64,000 nucleotides of DNA from Rhodopseudomonas faecalis (GTDB lineage Bacteria; Pseudomonadota; Alphaproteobacteria; Rhizobiales; Xanthobacteraceae). The position numbers were made by a program, and so were the translations under genes. The DNA lies in NCBI RefSeq assembly GCF_003217325.1, contig NZ_QJTI01000012.1, forward strand, positions 1-64,000. The letters run 5' to 3'. Position 1 is the first letter of the stretch. Every line of letters begins with the position of its first letter. A model generated the notes under the pieces. The model was not told the DNA's origin. It saw nothing but the letters and a program-made list of their open reading frames with translations, and did not search any database. Shown piece by piece: positions 11,168-19,969 of this stretch.

Positions 11168-11929
11168 ATGGCACAGCGGGGCGAGACCACGCATTTCGGC
11201 TTCCGGGACGTGGCCCTGGAGGAAAAGCAGACGCTCGTCAATGACGTGTTCCATAGCGTCGCCAGCCGCTACGACCTGATGAACGATCTGATGTCGGGCG
11301 GCCTGCACCGGGTCTGGAAAAACGCCATGGTGACGACGCTGAACCCGCCGCGCGACGATGCGCCGTTTGCGCTTTTGGACGTGGCCGGCGGCACCGGCGA
11401 CATCTCGTTCCGCGCCGCCAAGGCGGCCGGCGCCGGCTTCACCTCGACGGTGTGCGACATCAACAGCGACATGCTCGCGGTCGGCGAGGAACGCGCCCTC
11501 GCCCAGCATCTCGACCATCAGGTGACGTTCGTGGAAGGCAATGCCGAGGAGCTGCCGTTCCCCGACAAGAGCTATGACGCCTATACGATCGCGTTCGGCA
11601 TCCGCAACGTGCCGCGCATCGACCTGGCGCTGAAGGAAGCTCATCGGGTACTGAAGCCCGGCAGCCGGTTCCTGTGCCTGGAATTCTCGACCGTGGACGT
11701 GCCGGGCCTCGACAAAATCTATGACCTGTTCTCGTTCAAGGTGATCCCGCATATCGGCCGCGCCGTGACCGGCGACGCCGAGAGCTACCAGTATCTTGTT
11801 GAATCAATTCGCAAATTCCCGAAGCCGGAGCAGTTCGCGACCATGATCCGCGACGCCGGCTTTGCCCGCGTCAGCTATCAATTGATGTCCGGCGGCATCG
11901 TCGCGCTGCATTCGGGCTGGCGTTTGTGA
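11168..11929 (+). CDS. ubiE: ubiquinone/menaquinone C-methyltransferase UbiE
   Basis: SAM-dependent C-methylation of the demethoxyquinol intermediate in ubiquinone synthesis. 253 residues; class I methyltransferase motifs [15 protein letters not shown] (about 70-84), the family box [19 protein letters not shown] (about 33-51) and [30 protein letters not shown] precedes the ATG. The stop overlaps the GTG of ubiB by 4 nt, so the two ubiquinone genes are translationally coupled. Confidence 0.97.
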
Positions 11930-13503
11930 TCTCTGCACTGACCCATGCGGCGCGGCTGGCCCGCGCCGGCTACGTGTTCGCGCGTGAAGGCGTGTTCGGC
12001 GTGGTCGATCCGTCCCTGGTGCCACCGCCGGGGCGGCTGGCGCTGCGGCTGGCACGGCTGATCGAACGGCGCGGCGCCGGGACTGGCCCGCGGCTGTCGC
12101 TGGCGCTGACCAAGCTCGGCCCGGCCTATCTGAAACTGGGACAGTTTTTGGCAACCCGGCCCGACGTGGTCGGCGTGGCCATGGCGCGCAATCTGGAAAG
12201 CCTGCAGGACCGGCTGCCGCCGTTCTCGCAGTCGGAAGCCGATGCGGTCATTGCCGCCTCGCTGGAGCGGCCGGTCGATCAGGCCTTTGTCAGCCTGAGC
12301 GCCCCGGTGGCGGCGGCCTCGATCGCCCAGGTGCATCGCGGCGAGGTCGAGGTCGACGGCGTGCGCAAGCAGGTCGCGGTCAAGGTGCTGCGCCCCAATG
12401 TCGGCGCGAGATTCCGGCGTGATCTCAGCGACTTCTTCTTCGTCGCCGAGAAGGCCGAGCTGTATTCGGCGGAAGCGCGGCGGCTGCGGCTGGTGGAAGT
12501 CATCAACACCATGTCGCGCACGGTGGCCATGGAGATGGACCTGCGGCTGGAAGCGGCCGCGGCCTCCGAAATGGCGGAAAACACCAAGGACGACCCGGAT
12601 TTCCGGGTGCCGACGGTGGACTGGGACCGCACCACCCACAACGTGCTGACCATGGAGTGGATCGACGGCATTCCGCTGAACGACCACGCCCGAATCGCCG
12701 AAGCCAAGGTCGATACCCAGGAACTCGGCCGCAAGGTGATCCAGAGCTTCCTGCGCCATGCGCTGCGCGACGGCTTCTTCCATGCCGACATGCATCCGGG
12801 CAACCTGTTCCTGGACCCCGAGGGCCGGCTGGTCGCGGTCGATTTCGGCATCATGGGTCGGCTGGCGCCCAAGGAACGGCGCTTCCTGGCCGAAATCCTG
12901 CTCGGCTTCATCACCCGCAATTATCGCCGGGTCGCCGAGGTGCATTTCGAGGCCGGCTATGTGCCGCCGCACCATTCGGTCGAAAATTTCGCGCAGGCGA
13001 TCCGGGCGATCGGCGAGCCGATCCATAATCGCACCGCCGAAGAAATCTCGATGGCCAAGCTGCTCACGCTGCTGCTCGAGGTCACCGGGCTGTTCGACAT
13101 GCGCACCCGGCCGGAATTGATCCTGCTGCAAAAGACCATGGTGGTGGTCGAGGGCGTGGCGCGTTCGTTCGATCCCAAGCTCGACATCTGGAAGGTCGCC
13201 GACCCGGTGGTGCGCGAATGGATCGAGCGCAATCTTGGCCCGATCGGCAAGATCGAGAGCGCGCTCGCCGGCGGCGGCGAGATCGTTCAGGTGCTGTCCG
13301 GCCTGCCGTCGATCGTCAGCCGCTCGGTCACGGTGCTGAACCAGCTCGAGGCCATGACCCGCGACGGCCTGGTGCTGGCACCGGAAACCATCGCCGCGAT
13401 CGGACGCAGCGAGCGGCGCAAGAGCCGGGGCCGCACCATCGCGCTCTGGATCATCGCCGCGACCTTCATCGGCGTGCTGTTCTCGCTGCAATATCTGCGC
13501 TGA
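11926..13503 (+). CDS. ubiB: ubiquinone biosynthesis protein UbiB (ABC1/ADCK kinase-like)
   Basis: 525 residues from a GTG that overlaps the ubiE stop. Atypical protein-kinase-like fold of the UbiB/COQ8 family: KLGQ motif in [13 protein letters not shown] (about 66-78), Ala-rich loop [24 protein letters not shown] and VDFGIMGR. Two C-terminal hydrophobic segments, the last ([20 protein letters not shown]) reaching the C-terminus, anchor it to the inner membrane. UbiB proteins are ATPases thought to help extract or organise ubiquinone intermediates. Length is typical. Confidence 0.96.
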
Positions 13504-13512
13504 CGCGCTAGC

Positions 13513-13546
13513 ACTGACTGCAATGCTTGCCTGCATTGCAGTCAGT
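13513..13546 (+). terminator. perfect 14-bp hairpin after ubiB
   Basis: ACTGACTGCAATGC (13513-13526), loop TTGCCT, GCATTGCAGTCAGT (13533-13546), 10 nt after the ubiB stop. No T-tract follows, so it may terminate weakly, protect the 3' end, or be a binding site. Confidence 0.6.
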
Positions 13547-13569
13547 TGGCATAGTCCCGCATCCTCGCC

Positions 13570-13657
13570 GTCATGGCCGGGCCCTGCCCGGCCATCCACG
13601 TTTTGATCCGCAGCAGACCCGAACGGCGTGGCTGCCCGCGACCGATGCGGGCATGAC
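13570..13657. repeat. MITE/REP-like element copy
   Basis: GTCATGGCCGGGCCCTGCCC at the left and CCCGCGACCGATGCGGGCATGAC at the right (compare the family at 61539-61686). Sits between the ubiB hairpin and coaBC. Confidence 0.75.
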
Positions 13658-13695: not shown

Positions 13696-15122
13696 ATGGC
13701 CAACCTGACCATCCGCAAGCTCGACGAGGCCATCAAATCCGAGCTGCGCCAGCGCGCCGCGCGCAACGGCCGTTCGATGGAAGACGAGGTGCGCAGCATT
13801 TTGCGCGAGGCGGCGCTGCAGTCGCCCTCGGCCGAGCCGGCGCCGAGCGACGAACTCGAGCGCGCCGAGCTGACGCCCACCGAAAGCGCCGCGCCGGGCA
13901 GCGCATCGCCGCGCATCACGCTGATCGTCGGCGGCGGCATCGCCGCCTACAAGTCGATGGACCTGATCCGCCGGCTGAAGGAGCGCGGCTTTGAGGTGCG
14001 CTGCGTGCTGACCGCCGCCGCGCAGCAATTCGTGACGCCGCTCACCGCCAGCGCGCTGTCGCATCAGCGCGTCTATACTGACCTGTTCGATCCGCAAAGC
14101 GAGTTCGATGCCGGTCATATCCGGCTCGGGCGCGACTGCGCGCTGATCGTGGTGGCGCCGGCCACCGCCGATCTGATGGCGAAAATGGCCAATGGCCACG
14201 CCAACGACCTCGCCAGCGCGATTCTGCTGGCCAGCAACCGCCCGATCCTGCTGGCGCCGGCCATGAACCCGATGATGTGGAACAACCCGGCGACCCGCCG
14301 CAACGTCGCGCAGCTTGTGCGCGACGGCGTCAAACTGATCGGCCCGTTTGCCGGCGAGATGGCGGAAGCCGGCGAAGCGGGCGTTGGCCGGATGGCCGAG
14401 CCGCTGCAGATCGCTGCCGCCGCCGACGCGCTGCTGCGCCCGGCCGCGCCGCAGCCCTTGGCCGGCAAGCACGTGCTGATCACCGCAGGCCCGACCCATG
14501 AGCCGATCGACCCGGTGCGCTACATCGCCAACCGCTCCAGCGGCAAGCAGGGCTTTGCCATCGCCGCCGCAGCGCAGGCCGCCGGCGCCAGCGTGACGCT
14601 GATCGCCGGCCCAGTGGAACTGCGCGACCCGCAAGGCGTCCGGGTGATCCGGGTGGAAGCGGCGCGCGACATGCTGGCCGCGGTGGAAGCAGCGCTGCCC
14701 GCCGATATCGCGATCTTTGCCGCCGCGGTCGCCGATTGGCGCGTCGCCGAACAAGGCGGCCAGAAGCTGAAGAAGGATGGCAATGGCGTGCCGCCGCTGC
14801 AATTGGTCGAAAACCCGGACATTCTCGCCACCATCGCGCAGCGCCAGCACGGCCGGCCGCCGCTGGTGATCGGCTTTGCCGCCGAGACCGAGCATCTGAT
14901 CGACCACGCCACCGCCAAGCTGCAACGCAAGCGCTGCGACTGGATCGTCGCCAATGACGTCTCGCCCGCGACCGGGGTGATGGGCGGCGACCGCAACACC
15001 GTGCATCTGTTGATCCGAGACGGTGATCAGATTCGCCAGGAAGCTTGGCCATTGATGGCCAAGGACGAAGTCGCCACCGCGCTGGTGCAGCGCATTGCCG
15101 ACGCTATCGGGAGTTTTGCCGC

Positions 15123-15126
<4 letters not shown>
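13696..15126 (+). CDS. coaBC: CoaBC with N-terminal FitA-like ribbon-helix-helix domain
   Basis: Bifunctional coenzyme A enzyme: CoaB ligates cysteine to 4'-phosphopantothenate (CTP), CoaC decarboxylates the product (FMN). 476 residues. Residues 1-42 are not Coa[12 protein letters not shown]...[16 protein letters not shown] is a FitA/Arc-type ribbon-helix-helix domain. A Pro/Ala/Glu linker covers 43-71. CoaC spans about 72-250 (GGGIAAYKS; His141 in [18 protein letters not shown]) and CoaB about 255-476 ([35 protein letters not shown]). No in-frame ATG, GTG or TTG exists in the linker, so CoaBC can only be made as the fusion. GAAGGGA precedes the ATG. The stop overlaps dut by 4 nt. Confidence 0.95.
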
Positions 15127-15575
<449 letters not shown>

Positions 15576-15929: not shown

Positions 15930-18449
15930 ATGGCAGGCGTGATCGCATCGGTGCGTCGGACGCTGCTGTCGTGCACTTCGCTGGCACGCAGCAGCTACAT
16001 TGGCTTCGCCGCCACCGTGCTGACCGCGGTGACGCCGGCGCGTGCCGAGGCGGCGATGCTGGACGCGGCCGCCGAGCTGTTCGATCTCAACCGCCAGGAA
16101 CTCGGCACGCTCACCATCACCGCCGGCGTGCTCGGCTTTACGGTGCTGGCCACCATCCAGTTGATGCGCACCCGGATGCGCGCCGCGGCCTGCGAAGCGC
16201 GGCTGCGCGACGACATCCAGAGCCTGCAGATCGAAAGCGACCGGTTCCGCGCGCTGCTGTTCACCGAACCGCAGGTGCTGATCTCCTGGGCGGCCGGCGA
16301 CAACCGCCCGCAAATCTCCGGCGATATCGCGCTGCTCGTTCCGCCGACGCAGGACGGGCCGCCGCAGCCGCATCGCGTGCTGGCGTTCGGAACCTGGATG
16401 GCGCCGGAGCCGGCGCTGCGCATGGACCACGCCGTCGATGCGCTGCTGGAATCCGGCGAGAGCTTTGTGCTGAATCTCGTCACCTCGACGGGCCGCAGCA
16501 TCGAGGCGATGGGCCGCGCGGTCGGCGGCCAGGCGATCGTGCGGATTCGCGAGCTGAGCGGGCTGCGCCGCGAACTCGCCGAGATGACCGACCGCTATCG
16601 CGCGCTGCACGAAGAAACCGAGATGCTGCGCGATTTCGCCTTCGCCGCGCCCTGGCCGATCTGGACGCGGCGCGCCAATGGCGAACTGACCTTCGCCAAC
16701 GCCGCCTATGCGCGCGCCGCCGAGGCCACCAGCATCACCGACGCCGTGCAGCACAATGTCGAGCTGCTCGACAGCCATGATCGCGACGCGCTGACCCGCG
16801 GCCTCAATGACAGCGCCGCGTTCAACGCGCGGCTGCCGATCGTGGTCGGCGGCGAGCGGCGGATGTTCGACGTCTATGCCCAAAAGGTGCGCGGCGGCAG
16901 CGCTGGCATGGCGATCGACGTCAACGAAGCTGCCGCACTGAAAACCTCGCTCGCGCGGATGGCCGATTCCCATCGCCGCACGCTCGATCAATTGTCGTCC
17001 GGCGTTGCGGTGTTCGACGAGCAGCACCGGCTGGCGTTCTACAACGATTCCTATCGCCGGCTGTTCGATCTCGACACCGCGTTCCTCGATTCCAATCCCG
17101 ACGAATCGACGCTGCTCGACAAGCTGCGCGCCGCGCGCAAGCTGCCGGAACAGGCCGATTTCCGCGCCTGGAAGACGCGGCTGTACGACGCCTATCGCGC
17201 CGTCGATGCCACCAAGGACGTCTGGTATCTGCCCGATGGCCGCGCGCTCAGCATCGTCACCACGCCCAATCTCGAAGGCGGCGTCACCTATCTGTTCGAC
17301 GACGTCACCGAAAAGCTCGACCTGGCGCGGCGCTATGACGCGCTGATCACGGTGCAGCGCGAGACGCTCGACAATCTCGCCGAAGCGGTCGCGGTGTTCG
17401 GCAGCAATGGCTGCGCGCGGCTGTTCAACCCGTCCTTCACCCGGCTCTGGAATCTGTCGGAAGAAGCGCTGCAGCAGCAGCCGCATATCGAAACGGTGAT
17501 CGACTGGTGCCGGCCGTTGTTCGACAATGGCGCGACCTGGCAGACGCTGCGCACCGCCATCACCAGCATCGAGAACCGGGTGCCGGTGCCGCTCAAGCTG
17601 CAGCGCAAGGATGGCAGCGTGCTCGCCTGCCTGACCATGCCGCTACCCGACGGCGCCACCATGCTGACATTCCAGGACATCACCGATACCGAGAATGTCG
17701 AGCGCGCGCTGCGCGAGCGCAACGAGGCGCTGGAAGCCGCCGATCAGATGAAGATCGACTTCGTGCACCACGTCTCCTACGAGCTGCGCTCGCCGCTCAC
17801 CACCATCATCGGCTTCGCCCATTTCCTCAGCGATCCGACCACCGGGCCGCTCACCGACAAGCAGGGCGAATATCTCGGCTACATCACCAGCTCGACCAAC
17901 GCGCTGCTCGCCATCATCAATAACATTCTCGACCTCGCCACCATCGACGCCGGCGCGATGACGCTCAATCTCGGCCCGGTCGATATTCTCAAGGCGATCG
18001 ACGCCGCCAGCGAAGGCATTCAGGACCGGCTCGCCCGCGATCACATCACGCTCGATGTGCAGGCCGATGCCGAAATCGGCCAGTTCATCGCCGACGAACG
18101 GCGCGTGGTGCAGGTGCTGTATAATCTGCTCGCCAACGCGGTCGGCTTCTCGCCGCAGCAATCCACCATCACCTTGAAGGCCGAGCGCACCGCCACCGAT
18201 ATCGTATTCACCGTGATCGATCGCGGCCCGGGCATCGCGCCCGAAGTGCAGGAAAAGGTGTTCGACTGGTTCGAGAGCCATTCCAACGGCTCGCGCCATC
18301 GCGGCGCCGGGCTTGGGCTGTCGCTGGTGCGCTCGTTCGTCGAGCTGCATGGCGGCAAGGTGCGGATCGATTCGGTGGTGGGCCAGGGCACGACGCTGAC
18401 CTGCAGCTTCCCGATCGATCAGTCCCAGCAGCGCCACGCCGCTGAATGA
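15930..18449 (+). CDS. divL: DivL-type PAS pseudo-histidine kinase (Tyr in the H-box)
   Basis: 840 residues from the ATG at 15930, preceded by GGGG. Two N-terminal hydrophobic segments (about 15-38 and 57-78), three PAS-like regions (about 235-330, 345-440, 475-580), a HisKA dimerisation helix and a HATPase domain (about 715-830; DRGPGIAPE at about 763, RGAGLGLSLV at about 789). The H-box reads VSYELRSPL: the phospho-acceptor His is Tyr617, as in Caulobacter DivL, where the tyrosine protein acts through CckA to control CtrA. Gene order divL-tsaE-amgK-murU-addBA-trxA also fits an alphaproteobacterial divL locus. The stop overlaps the next ATG (ATGA). Signalling role inferred from Caulobacter. 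Confidence 0.88.
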   Translation: MAGVIASVRRTLLSCTSLARSSYIGFAATVLTAVTPARAEAAMLDAAAELFDLNRQELGTLTITAGVLGFTVLATIQLMRTRMRAAACEARLRDDIQSLQIESDRFRALLFTEPQVLISWAAGDNRPQISGDIALLVPPTQDGPPQPHRVLAFGTWMAPEPALRMDHAVDALLESGESFVLNLVTSTGRSIEAMGRAVGGQAIVRIRELSGLRRELAEMTDRYRALHEETEMLRDFAFAAPWPIWTRRANGELTFANAAYARAAEATSITDAVQHNVELLDSHDRDALTRGLNDSAAFNARLPIVVGGERRMFDVYAQKVRGGSAGMAIDVNEAAALKTSLARMADSHRRTLDQLSSGVAVFDEQHRLAFYNDSYRRLFDLDTAFLDSNPDESTLLDKLRAARKLPEQADFRAWKTRLYDAYRAVDATKDVWYLPDGRALSIVTTPNLEGGVTYLFDDVTEKLDLARRYDALITVQRETLDNLAEAVAVFGSNGCARLFNPSFTRLWNLSEEALQQQPHIETVIDWCRPLFDNGATWQTLRTAITSIENRVPVPLKLQRKDGSVLACLTMPLPDGATMLTFQDITDTENVERALRERNEALEAADQMKIDFVHHVSYELRSPLTTIIGFAHFLSDPTTGPLTDKQGEYLGYITSSTNALLAIINNILDLATIDAGAMTLNLGPVDILKAIDAASEGIQDRLARDHITLDVQADAEIGQFIADERRVVQVLYNLLANAVGFSPQQSTITLKAERTATDIVFTVIDRGPGIAPEVQEKVFDWFESHSNGSRHRGAGLGLSLVRSFVELHGGKVRIDSVVGQGTTLTCSFPIDQSQQRHAAE

Positions 18450-19969
18450 CCGCGCCGTTCGCATTCTCCGTCGCGCTGGCCAATGAAACGGCCACGGCGC
18501 ATCTCATGGCCGATCTCGCGCTGCTGATCAGCCCGGGCGATGTGATCGCGCTGTCGGGCGACCTCGGCGCCGGCAAGACCGCGGCGGCGCGCGCCATGAT
18601 CCGCTATCTCGCCGGCGAGCCCGAGCTCGACGTGCCGAGTCCGACCTTTACGCTGGTGCAGTCCTACGATCTGCCGTCGTTTCCGCTGCTGCACGCCGAT
18701 CTGTACCGGATCGACGATCCCGGCGAACTCGAAGAGATCGGGCTGTCGCCGCTGCCGGAGGGCACGGTGGCGCTGATCGAATGGGCCGAGCGCGCCCCGG
18801 AGGTGCTGCCGGACGACCACATCGAGATCACGCTGACCCATCGCCCGGCGCTGGGCTCGGTGGCACGCGCCGCCGAGATCAAAGGTTATGGCAAGGCCGC
18901 CGCCCAGGTACGGCGGCTGCAGGCGCTGCGCGCGTTCCTGGAACGCGCCGGGGAGATGGAGGCGGCGCGCGAACGGGTCGCCGGCGATGCCTCGACCCGC
19001 TCTTATGCCCGGCTGCTTCATGACGGCCCGCCGCTGATCCTGATGAACGCGCCGCGCCGGCCGGACGGCCCGCCGATCTATGGCGGCCGCTCCTACAGCG
19101 CCGCGGTGCACCTCGCCGAAGATGTCCGGCCGTTCGTCGCGATCGCCAATGGCCTGCGCGAGCGCGGCTTTTCCGCGCCGGCGATCCTGCACGCCAATCT
19201 GAGCGATGGCTTTCTGATCACCGAGGATCTCGGCGCCGCCGGCTTCCTCGGCGGCGTGCCGCGCCAGCCGATCACTGAACGCTACCAGGCCGCCGCCGAT
19301 TGCCTGGCGGCGCTGCATCGCGCGCCACTGCCCACCGTGCTGCCGGTTCCGGACGGCCCGGACTACACCATCCCGGAATTCGACGTCGAAGCGATGCTGA
19401 TCGAGATCGGCCTGATGCCGGAATGGTATCTGCCCGACCGCGGCACCCCGCTGACCGCGGCCGCCCATCAGGAGTTTCTGGCGCTGTGGCGCGCCTTGCT
19501 GTTGCAGCACGCCGCCGACGCCCAGACCTGGGTGCTGCGCGACTTCCATTCGCCCAATCTGATCTGGCTTGAGGACCGTACGGACATTGCCCGGGTCGGC
19601 CTGATTGATTTTCAGGACGCGGTGCTCGGCCCCGCCGCCTATGACCTGGTGTCGCTGGCGCAGGATGCCCGCATCGACGTGTCCGAACAGCTCGAACTGA
19701 CGCTGCTGGCGCGCTACATCAAGGCGCGGCGCACCGCGGAACCGGGCTTTGACCCGGCCGCCTTCGCCGAGACCTATGCGGTGATGTCCGCCCAGCGCAA
19801 CACAAGGCTGCTCGGCACCTTCACCCGGCTCAACCGCCGCGACGGTAAGCCGCAATACCTCGCCCATCTGCCGCGGATCTGGACCTATCTGACGCGCTCG
19901 CTGGCGCACCCGGCTTTGGCGTCGCTGCAGAGCTGGTATGACCGGCATGTGCCGCCACCGGCGCTGTGA
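18446..19969 (+). CDS. tsaE: TsaE / AmgK fusion: tRNA t6A ATPase plus MurNAc/GlcNAc anomeric kinase
   Basis: 507 residues. Residues 1-150 are TsaE, the ATPase of the t6A37 tRNA-modification complex: P-loop GDLGAGKT (about 38-45), SPTFTLVQSY, HADLYRIDDPGELEEIGL. Residues about 165-500 are an aminoglycoside-phosphotransferase-fold kinase: GDASTRSYARL, LRDFHSPNLIWL with the catalytic Asp, and LIDFQDAVLGPAAYDLVSLAQD. The kinase half matches AmgK, which phosphorylates MurNAc at C1 for MurU, and a murU-like gene follows 540 bp downstream. Fused TsaE-phosphotransferases are frequent in alphaproteobacteria. It starts inside the divL stop codon. Confidence 0.92.
   Translation: MTAPFAFSVALANETATAHLMADLALLISPGDVIALSGDLGAGKTAAARAMIRYLAGEPELDVPSPTFTLVQSYDLPSFPLLHADLYRIDDPGELEEIGLSPLPEGTVALIEWAERAPEVLPDDHIEITLTHRPALGSVARAAEIKGYGKAAAQVRRLQALRAFLERAGEMEAARERVAGDASTRSYARLLHDGPPLILMNAPRRPDGPPIYGGRSYSAAVHLAEDVRPFVAIANGLRERGFSAPAILHANLSDGFLITEDLGAAGFLGGVPRQPITERYQAAADCLAALHRAPLPTVLPVPDGPDYTIPEFDVEAMLIEIGLMPEWYLPDRGTPLTAAAHQEFLALWRALLLQHAADAQTWVLRDFHSPNLIWLEDRTDIARVGLIDFQDAVLGPAAYDLVSLAQDARIDVSEQLELTLLARYIKARRTAEPGFDPAAFAETYAVMSAQRNTRLLGTFTRLNRRDGKPQYLAHLPRIWTYLTRSLAHPALASLQSWYDRHVPPPAL

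Follow-up and report, generated by a model that had tools for sequence, protein, structure and literature searches.

Why does an enzyme of coenzyme A (CoA) synthesis begin with what reads as the DNA-binding domain of an antitoxin? The question is raised by a stretch of 64,000 nucleotides from Rhodopseudomonas faecalis (contig NZ_QJTI01000012.1; hereafter the window), in which one open reading frame joins a ribbon-helix-helix (RHH) domain to the bifunctional flavoenzyme CoaBC. Ordinary CoaBC (Dfp; e.g., MsmCoaBC, 6TGV) has a full TIGR00521 match in common with the window protein. It begins, however, at the flavoprotein domain, as do the unfused relatives, whereas in the window CoaBC is preceded by the RHH. 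We know of no DNA binding by ordinary CoaBC. The regulation reported for the enzyme is feedback by CoA and CoA thioesters (PMC7794376). The first-pass annotation of this locus had offered two alternatives: an antitoxin-like gene was captured ahead of coaBC, or the enzyme has a second role as autoregulator of coaBC-dut. From sequence comparison, the two appear to combine into one story, in which the capture of an antitoxin probably made an essential enzyme into a PutA-like autorepressor of coaBC-dut.

An antitoxin-family domain on the sole CoaBC of the genome

The gene and its neighbours in the window are the following.

11926..13503, + strand: ubiB, the upstream neighbour; open reading frame, named from the sequence by eye
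13696..15126, + strand: RHH-CoaBC fusion gene, 476 amino acids; open reading frame with ATG start, matching PF22513, PF02441, PF04127 and TIGR00521
13699..13815, + strand: FitA-like RHH domain, residues 2-40; PF22513 E 1.3e-17, invariant residues, fold match to 2bsq
within 13699..13815, + strand: residues 2-8, the expected DNA-contact strand of the RHH
13816..13911, + strand: linker, residues 41-72, variable and predicted to be disordered, and in relatives the stretch from which antitoxin tail and toxin disappeared; pLDDT <50 at residues 43-68, median dN/dS 0.61 within the genus, no in-frame start
13912..15123, + strand: CoaC flavoprotein decarboxylase and CoaB ligase, residues 73-476; PF02441 at 73-237, PF04127 at 255-439
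15123..15575, + strand: dut; GTG start sharing GTGA with the coaBC stop, name and start chosen by eye

The initial proposal of a FitA-type RHH fused to CoaBC was borne out by two profiles in the one reading frame: the Pfam family FitA-like_RHH (PF22513) covers residues 2-40 with 63.9 bits against a cut-off of 27, over profile positions 1-39 of 39, and the coaBC equivalog TIGR00521 covers residues 73-467, both enzyme domains included, with 398.6 bits against 219.7. The motif PxMNxxM, which we take to be the CoaC substrate motif, is present as PAMNPMM. A search of the genome found no other CoaBC and no other PF22513 match over the cut-off (one more lies under it, E 0.33), so that the sole copy of an essential enzyme bears the genome's sole domain of this antitoxin family. 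Since the dut start overlaps the coaBC stop, coaBC and dut are probably co-regulated.

The linker had also been described as offering no start codon from which an RHH-less enzyme could be made. This holds in the window, where no in-frame ATG, GTG or TTG occurs from the RHH to the flavoprotein motif and the nearest in-frame starts (GTG at codon 32, TTG at codon 36) both lie inside helix 2. Most relatives differ: an in-frame ATG, GTG or TTG occurs in that interval in 43 of 57 fused sequences, an ATG in 13 of them, which leaves room for an RHH-less isoform there.

The predicted fold agrees, apart from the strand, with the expectation that residues 1-42 form an RHH. AlphaFold placed helices at 11-24 and 28-42 in the full-length protein (pLDDT ~90, against <50 for linker residues 43-68) and the same two helices in the domain modelled alone, at the positions of the FitA helices. 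Residues 2-7 were modelled as helix (full length) or coil (domain alone) and never as strand; the models are of single chains, and an RHH strand arises in the dimer. The top Foldseek matches were the FitA chains of DNA-bound FitAB, 2bsq (probability 0.99-1.00, TM 0.75-0.77, E 0.09-0.15). VapB, AmrZ, Arc and CopG proteins came next, and E-values were weak throughout; the RHH of E. coli PutA (2gpe) was among the weaker matches (rank 43, E 2.1). None of the 91 matches had E <0.001, as expected for a query of 45 residues.

A separate observation concerns the CoaC redox cysteine, presumably the equivalent of C158 in E. coli. The stretch where it would be expected (14361-14400, placed by analogy with E. 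coli) has no cysteine in the window, and it equally has none in the other loci that yielded the motif, fused or unfused, except for MACGE in L109 and L110; five loci yielded no motif in this comparison. Cysteine loss as a companion of the fusion was therefore rejected, because unfused relatives equally have none. Elsewhere in the window, a 507-aa open reading frame (18446-19969) looks, by eye, like TsaE joined to a domain of aminoglycoside-phosphotransferase type.

Distribution of the fusion and number of events

The search of CoaBC orthologues for this N-terminus, which the first-pass annotation had proposed, recovered the RHH in two groups, the family of the window (f1) and one genus of another family of the order (f22). 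The family draw comprised 75 genomes, with a match in 46 of 47 genera and CoaBC in 74; in 40 of these 74, from 28 genera, the alignment runs from residue 1-2, in 32 it begins at residue 57 or later, and two (G055, G004) are cut by a contig end. The N-termini of the fetched family loci were read directly. Conservation of the RHH across 28 genera argues that its presence is not due to chance. Elsewhere in the order (140 genomes, 137 matched), the alignment starts at residue 1 in two genomes only, both of the f22 genus, and four late starters that were read (G446, G507, G454, G485) have no RHH. Among 134 genomes of the class (101 matched), no alignment from residue 1 was found besides the window's own; four matches (G617, G596, G593, G635) start at residues 37-49 and are judged by alignment start alone. 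Within the f22 genus (81 genomes examined, 80 matched), 59 of the 80 align from residue 1-2 and 21 do not, and the RHH was confirmed in 30 of the 30 read, which were the best 30 of the 59.

The best 80 of at least 536 matches in named genomes comprised 49 loci labelled fused by script, three fused by reading (L242, L254, L282), one with a broken frame (L232) and 27 free FitA genes; among these 80, the closest named genome is Rhodopseudomonas palustris JSC-3b and the fused genera include Rhodopseudomonas, Bradyrhizobium, Tardiphaga, Afipia, Pseudolabrys and Rhodoplanes. Three loci deserve separate mention. The broken frame (L232:2501, an Afipia MAG) falls in the linker and leaves a 53-aa RHH alone with CoaBC in another frame, through either an assembly error or a natural split. 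In a Deltaproteobacteria MAG (L249:50-1500), an RHH and linker much like these precede a CoaBC of non-alphaproteobacterial look. The contig ends 50 bp away; this locus, possibly a third fusion and possibly a chimeric contig, was excluded from the analysis. In Rhizobiaceae bacterium MnEN-MB40S (L282:2501-3892), a TGATATCAATGATATCA palindrome lies upstream of an RHH-CoaBC that may stem from yet another fusion of its own.

How often the fusion arose was considered with a quick tree of 127 CoaBC cores, made without bootstraps. On this tree the fusions of f22 fall within their own genus (support 99) and well away from those of f1. They retain the canonical LSGKRILLII start, which the f1 fusions do not have, and their RHH is nearer to free FitA (mean identity 58%, best 75%) than to the fused RHH of f1 (mean 51%, best 62.5%). 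Together these observations make at least two fusions likely, the one in the f22 genus apparently separate from that in f1. The fused label changes eight times on the tree within f1, at least four of the changes being forced by starred branches, and eight times within f22, at least three being forced, with fused and toxin-antitoxin (TA) states interleaved; L081, with its deleted toxin, stands beside the fused L125, and the fused L071 lies among unfused rows. These changes suggest several fusions, losses or exchanges and a history that is not one clean event, and a single fusion, which the quick tree does not support, was rejected.

Toxin-antitoxin modules between ubiB and coaBC

In the window the fusion gene lies directly between ubiB and dut and, from the open reading frames as read by eye, no toxin gene adjoins it. 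In relatives, ubiB is the left border of a slot that holds TA modules. The most complete case in f1 is L113 (G079, genus g10), where ubiB is followed by an intact fitA (93 aa) and fitB (a PIN protein, 145 aa) and then by coaBC, unfused; fitA, fitB and coaBC overlap one another at GTGA and ATGA, and the operator sequence TGATTGCAATGCAATCAT lies just upstream of fitA. In L070 (genus g10) and L081 (genus g3) the antitoxin is kept and the toxin is internally deleted to its first and last few residues; Pfam recognized FitA in all three loci and PIN in L113. L081 keeps the operator. No operator was seen in L070, the antitoxin strand of which reads TIHEL (His for Arg7) instead of TIRKL. Finally, L125 (genus g3) is fused, and its linker AAAIQRIAEPGGDVEPE resembles, by eye, the antitoxin tail AIAAIVDPIGGFEIE; in L113 and L070 the antitoxin tail ends in PRFDDWPDDP. 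No TA genes were found in the slot of four other g10 genomes (G053, G100, G133, G148), and L123 gave no ubiB border in the survey.

The f22 genus presents a similar picture. Eighteen of its 21 unfused members (17 of 20 newly fetched loci, and L104) have an antitoxin-toxin pair between ubiB and coaBC, both genes being confirmed by Pfam in the two pairs tested (L163, L164) and the remainder read from sequence; no pair was found in the slot of L175, L178 and L181. L163 shares with L113 an overlap between the stop codon of the toxin gene and the start of coaBC. Upstream of the intact antitoxins, the strict half-site of the operator occurs in 3 of 16 loci and the looser TGAYNGCA in 16 of 16, a count made without a shuffle control and on 16 of the 20 loci, as L180 was missed by the pattern and L175, L178 and L181 have no antitoxin. 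Six unfused f22 loci (L164, L166, L167, L171, L176, L104) have an extra RHH antitoxin-like open reading frame ahead of the pair, so that TA genes are stacked there, and in G021 the same slot holds HicA and HicB-like genes, another TA type (L075:933-1555). Taken with the pairs of f1 and f22, the latter locus suggests that the interval between ubiB and coaBC is a repeated landing place for TA modules. The idea that an antitoxin-like gene was captured before coaBC gains its support here, in intact, toxin-deleted and fused states that occupy the same position in living relatives and that may be regarded as fossil intermediates.

A putative operator at the coaBC promoter

The region upstream of the window gene contains the following.

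13513..13546, no strand: putative operator, a perfect inverted repeat ACTGACTGCAATGC-N6-GCATTGCAGTCAGT with 14-bp arms, -183 to -150 from the start
13527..13555, + strand: weak sigma-70-like promoter, TTGCCT (13527-13532), 17-nt spacer, CATAGT (13550-13555); read by eye
13569..13600, no strand: REP-like repeat between operator/promoter and start codon; core 15-mer GCCCGGCCATCCACG

The spacer of the inverted repeat is TTGCCT (ACTGACTGCAATGC-TTGCCT-GCATTGCAGTCAGT), and the palindrome thus covers the -35 and part of the spacer of the weak promoter. No second copy of the repeat was found in the genome with up to three mismatches allowed (reversed control, 0), and G089 has it with a single change. 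A consensus promoter in the window was rejected, as a scan of the region gave none over threshold and TTGCCT/CATAGT fall below it; the promoters of relatives are stronger (e.g., TTGATT-N16-TATAAT in L124). The REP-like core has six copies in the window at up to two mismatches (0.84 expected by chance), the others being at 1300, 9995, 28567, 39379 and 61590. The copy at 13569-13600 separates the operator from the coaBC start, an arrangement similar to that of L034, which was counted as having no half-sites within 200 bp and has half-sites starting at -282 and -268, ahead of REP-like repeats.

In the f1 loci, a recurring palindrome with the consensus TGATTGCAT-TGATTGCAA-TGCAATCA was read upstream of fused coaBC, and a palindromic putative operator, TGATTGCA-N-TGCAATCA, is found at the coaBC promoter of most fused genomes and is missing from the unfused. 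The motif was first noticed in f1 and then counted in other sets, one f22 locus being already among those first seen. Of 49 loci labelled fused by script, 43 have half-sites (TGATNGCA/TGCNATCA) within the 200 bp ahead of the start (shuffle mean 3.0, highest 9) and 39 have two or more (shuffle 0.07); of 47 labelled unfused, 4 have at least one (shuffle 1.06) and one has two or more; in a coding control the numbers were 5 of 49 and 0 of 47. The labels come from a regular expression, which called L132 unfused; when this locus is taken as fused, as it reads, half-sites are present in 44 of 50 fused and 3 of 46 unfused loci, and two or more in 40 of 50 and 0 of 46. These upstream counts leave out L067 (contig end) and four loci in which the CoaC start was unmatched by the motif (L066, read as fused; L083; L094; and L095, cut by its contig), and the TA-bearing L070, L081, L104 and L113 are counted as unfused in them, with the 200 bp taken ahead of coaBC and not of the antitoxin. 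All 30 fused loci counted in the f22 genus, the best of its 59, likewise have half-sites (shuffle 1.8), as do the upstream regions of 19 of the 27 free FitA genes, from several phyla, that are among the best 80 of at least 536 matches (shuffle 1.1).

A scan of 56 whole genomes for the 17-bp core TGATTGCANTGCAATCA (at most one mismatch) placed it in 24 of 32 fused genomes, at coaBC in all 24 and as the sole site in 23. At this threshold it was missing in eight fused genomes, the window's own (G000) and G089, G046, G059, G072, G014, G034 and G070. Two TA-bearing genomes (G079, G049) have the core at fitA and a third (G009) has none; of 21 other unfused genomes, the TA status of which was checked for part only, three have it (G022 five times, G073 twice, G041 once), never at coaBC. 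The reversed core pattern was absent from all 56 genomes. In relatives, the core sits between -35- and -10-like hexamers as read from the sequence, a position at which binding should block the promoter. Where the core is found, the putative operator of FitA type is nearly always one copy per genome. The exception is a second core in G065 (L184:1501-1517), 4.3 kb upstream of coaBC and between convergent open reading frames, one of them mutM-like; as no other of the 24 core-bearing fused genomes has a second site in this search, which misses diverged sites, a wider regulon was rejected.

The window's own putative operator is diverged, with TGACTGCA half-sites 14 bp apart and without the canonical core. 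The divergence goes with a residue of the expected contact strand: after merging identical upstream sequences (127 entries reduced to 109), canonical half-sites accompany Ser at position 3 in 87 of 90 loci, Asn in 6 of 18 and Thr in 0 of 1, kinship being ignored. The Asn loci, 12 of which have no canonical half-sites, are mostly Rhodopseudomonas. Kinship aside, the association between residue 3 and operator type fits a shift in specificity.

Autorepression and competing explanations

The reading that we favour is that a fitAB-type TA module sat between ubiB and coaBC, in one overlapping operon driven by a TA promoter under antitoxin repression. Deletion would then have removed the toxin along with the antitoxin tail that binds it, the antitoxin RHH would have become the N-terminus of CoaBC, and the TA operator and promoter would have been retained; we infer that the window lineage passed through these stages, which relatives display. 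CoaBC would thereby have three functions, as ligase, decarboxylase and repressor of its own promoter. RHH dimers would bind paired TGATNGCA half-sites, or the diverged version of Rhodopseudomonas, overlapping the -35 and -10, and plentiful CoaBC would shut down coaBC-dut, as happens with PutA and free antitoxins. The fused enzyme, then, probably turns down its own gene, and the early suggestion of a coaBC-dut autoregulator finds support in the predicted operator of FitA type that overlaps the coaBC promoter in most fused genomes. More speculatively, DNA binding could be tuned by CoA status, by substrate or by oligomeric state, and a dodecameric fused CoaBC could present up to six RHH dimers per particle to an array of half-sites.

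Of the alternatives, the one that survives best, itself unlikely, is that the RHH has been retained as a dimerisation or assembly module of CoaBC, with DNA binding lost and the palindrome a leftover. RHH domains are dimeric by nature, and conserved residues lie also outside the strand, where A22, S27, E29 and R33 are the same in all 57 fused sequences (one genome being included twice). In MsmCoaBC, CoaC trimers are linked through CoaB dimers into a dodecamer (PMC7794376), which makes an extra dimer contact conceivable. However, conservation of the strand itself, with Arg7, the expected DNA-contact residue, in all 57 sequences and T5 in 56, argues against the loss of DNA binding, as do the half-sites, which 44 of 50 fused loci and all 30 counted in the f22 genus retain and which are not seen in L070, where the strand has changed.

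It is very unlikely that the palindrome has nothing to do with the RHH and is instead a ubiB terminator, an RNA hairpin or a mobile repeat. The window repeat does have a strong predicted RNA fold (z -4.84) and follows closely on ubiB, but a terminator scan found none, as few as 3 of 46 unfused loci have one half-site and none has two, and the same motif precedes 19 of the 27 free fitA genes among the best 80 of at least 536 matches. Nor is the palindrome a dispersed repeat, being single-copy wherever it is found at coaBC, except in G065.

Still less probable is that the fused RHH remains an antitoxin that neutralises a FitB or VapC toxin encoded elsewhere, despite the PF22513 family it shares with FitA and the TA modules at the same site in relatives. 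In place of a toxin-binding C-terminal tail such as the one that ends in PRFDDWPDDP in L113 and L070, the window protein has an unconserved linker that runs into CoaC. The toxin partner that the first-pass annotation had thought worth looking for did not emerge in the genome: a search with PF01850, the one family used, returned a single PIN protein, on another contig and beside a gene that reads by eye as Phd-like, and the candidate was dropped.

That the RHH is a functionless passenger is the least credible explanation, since, although the linker varies freely and many relatives have CoaBC without the RHH, the domain is under strong purifying selection within the genus, as strong as that on CoaC (median dN/dS in ten sequences 0.076 for RHH, 0.107 for CoaC, 0.181 for CoaB and 0.609 for the linker), and across all f1 fused pairs it is somewhat less conserved than CoaC yet still between CoaC and CoaB and far below the linker (mean pN 0.201, against 0.158, 0.215 and 0.630).

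Returning to capture followed by autorepression, the proposed conversion of a TA module into a repressor has probably happened at least twice and left its stages visible. A broader proposition, for and against which we find the balance about even, is that TA modules repeatedly settle immediately before the essential coaBC, in an overlapping operon that ties its expression to the promoter under antitoxin control, and that toxin decay and fusion make the enzyme its own repressor, a general route from selfish addiction module to housekeeping regulator, with CoaBC sensing CoA demand and, through DNA binding, adjusting the amounts of itself and of dUTPase to it.

Comparison with known systems

Cofactor-pathway enzymes that double as DNA-binding regulators are represented by BirA and NadR, the DNA-binding folds and origin of which differ from those of RHH-CoaBC. 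The free antitoxins of FitAB and VapBC resemble the window domain in RHH family (PF22513), in fold (2bsq) and in the half-sites found at most of the free fitA genes examined, and antitoxins autorepress at their own promoter (PMC3384007, PMC3920265). Unlike them, the window RHH is part of an essential enzyme, with neither an adjacent toxin gene nor a toxin-binding tail.

The closest parallel is trifunctional PutA, in which an N-terminal RHH on a bifunctional flavoenzyme makes the protein the autogenous repressor of its own genes (PMC5293562). The window protein likewise has an RHH in frame at the N-terminus of a bifunctional flavoenzyme and, judging from sequence, a matching operator at its own promoter, diverged in the window; its role as repressor is predicted. 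The kind of RHH-enzyme autorepressor is, with PutA, already known. The fusion itself is unreported in the titles and abstract openings of the open-access papers listed by searches on CoaBC and CoA synthesis, antitoxin domestication and RHH moonlighting. What would be new, on the best reading of the sequences, is a CoA enzyme made into an RHH autorepressor through antitoxin capture, for which relatives still show the putative operator and intermediate stages. CoaBC differs from PutA in belonging to the CoA pathway, in drawing its RHH from the FitA antitoxin family, in sharing its putative operator with TA modules, in the intermediates that remain, and in that no switch ligand is known for it.

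If true, photosynthetic and nodulating bacteria would have a direct genetic control of CoA synthesis, and a route by which TA modules are tamed would have come into view: the module captures the promoter of an essential gene and loses its toxin, and the repressor stays welded to the enzyme, with the steps of the taming still visible in living genomes. The prediction of autorepression is sharp and cheaply testable, with one protein and one 34-bp site. RHH-CoaBC would then stand beside PutA as another RHH-enzyme autorepressor, now in an essential cofactor pathway.
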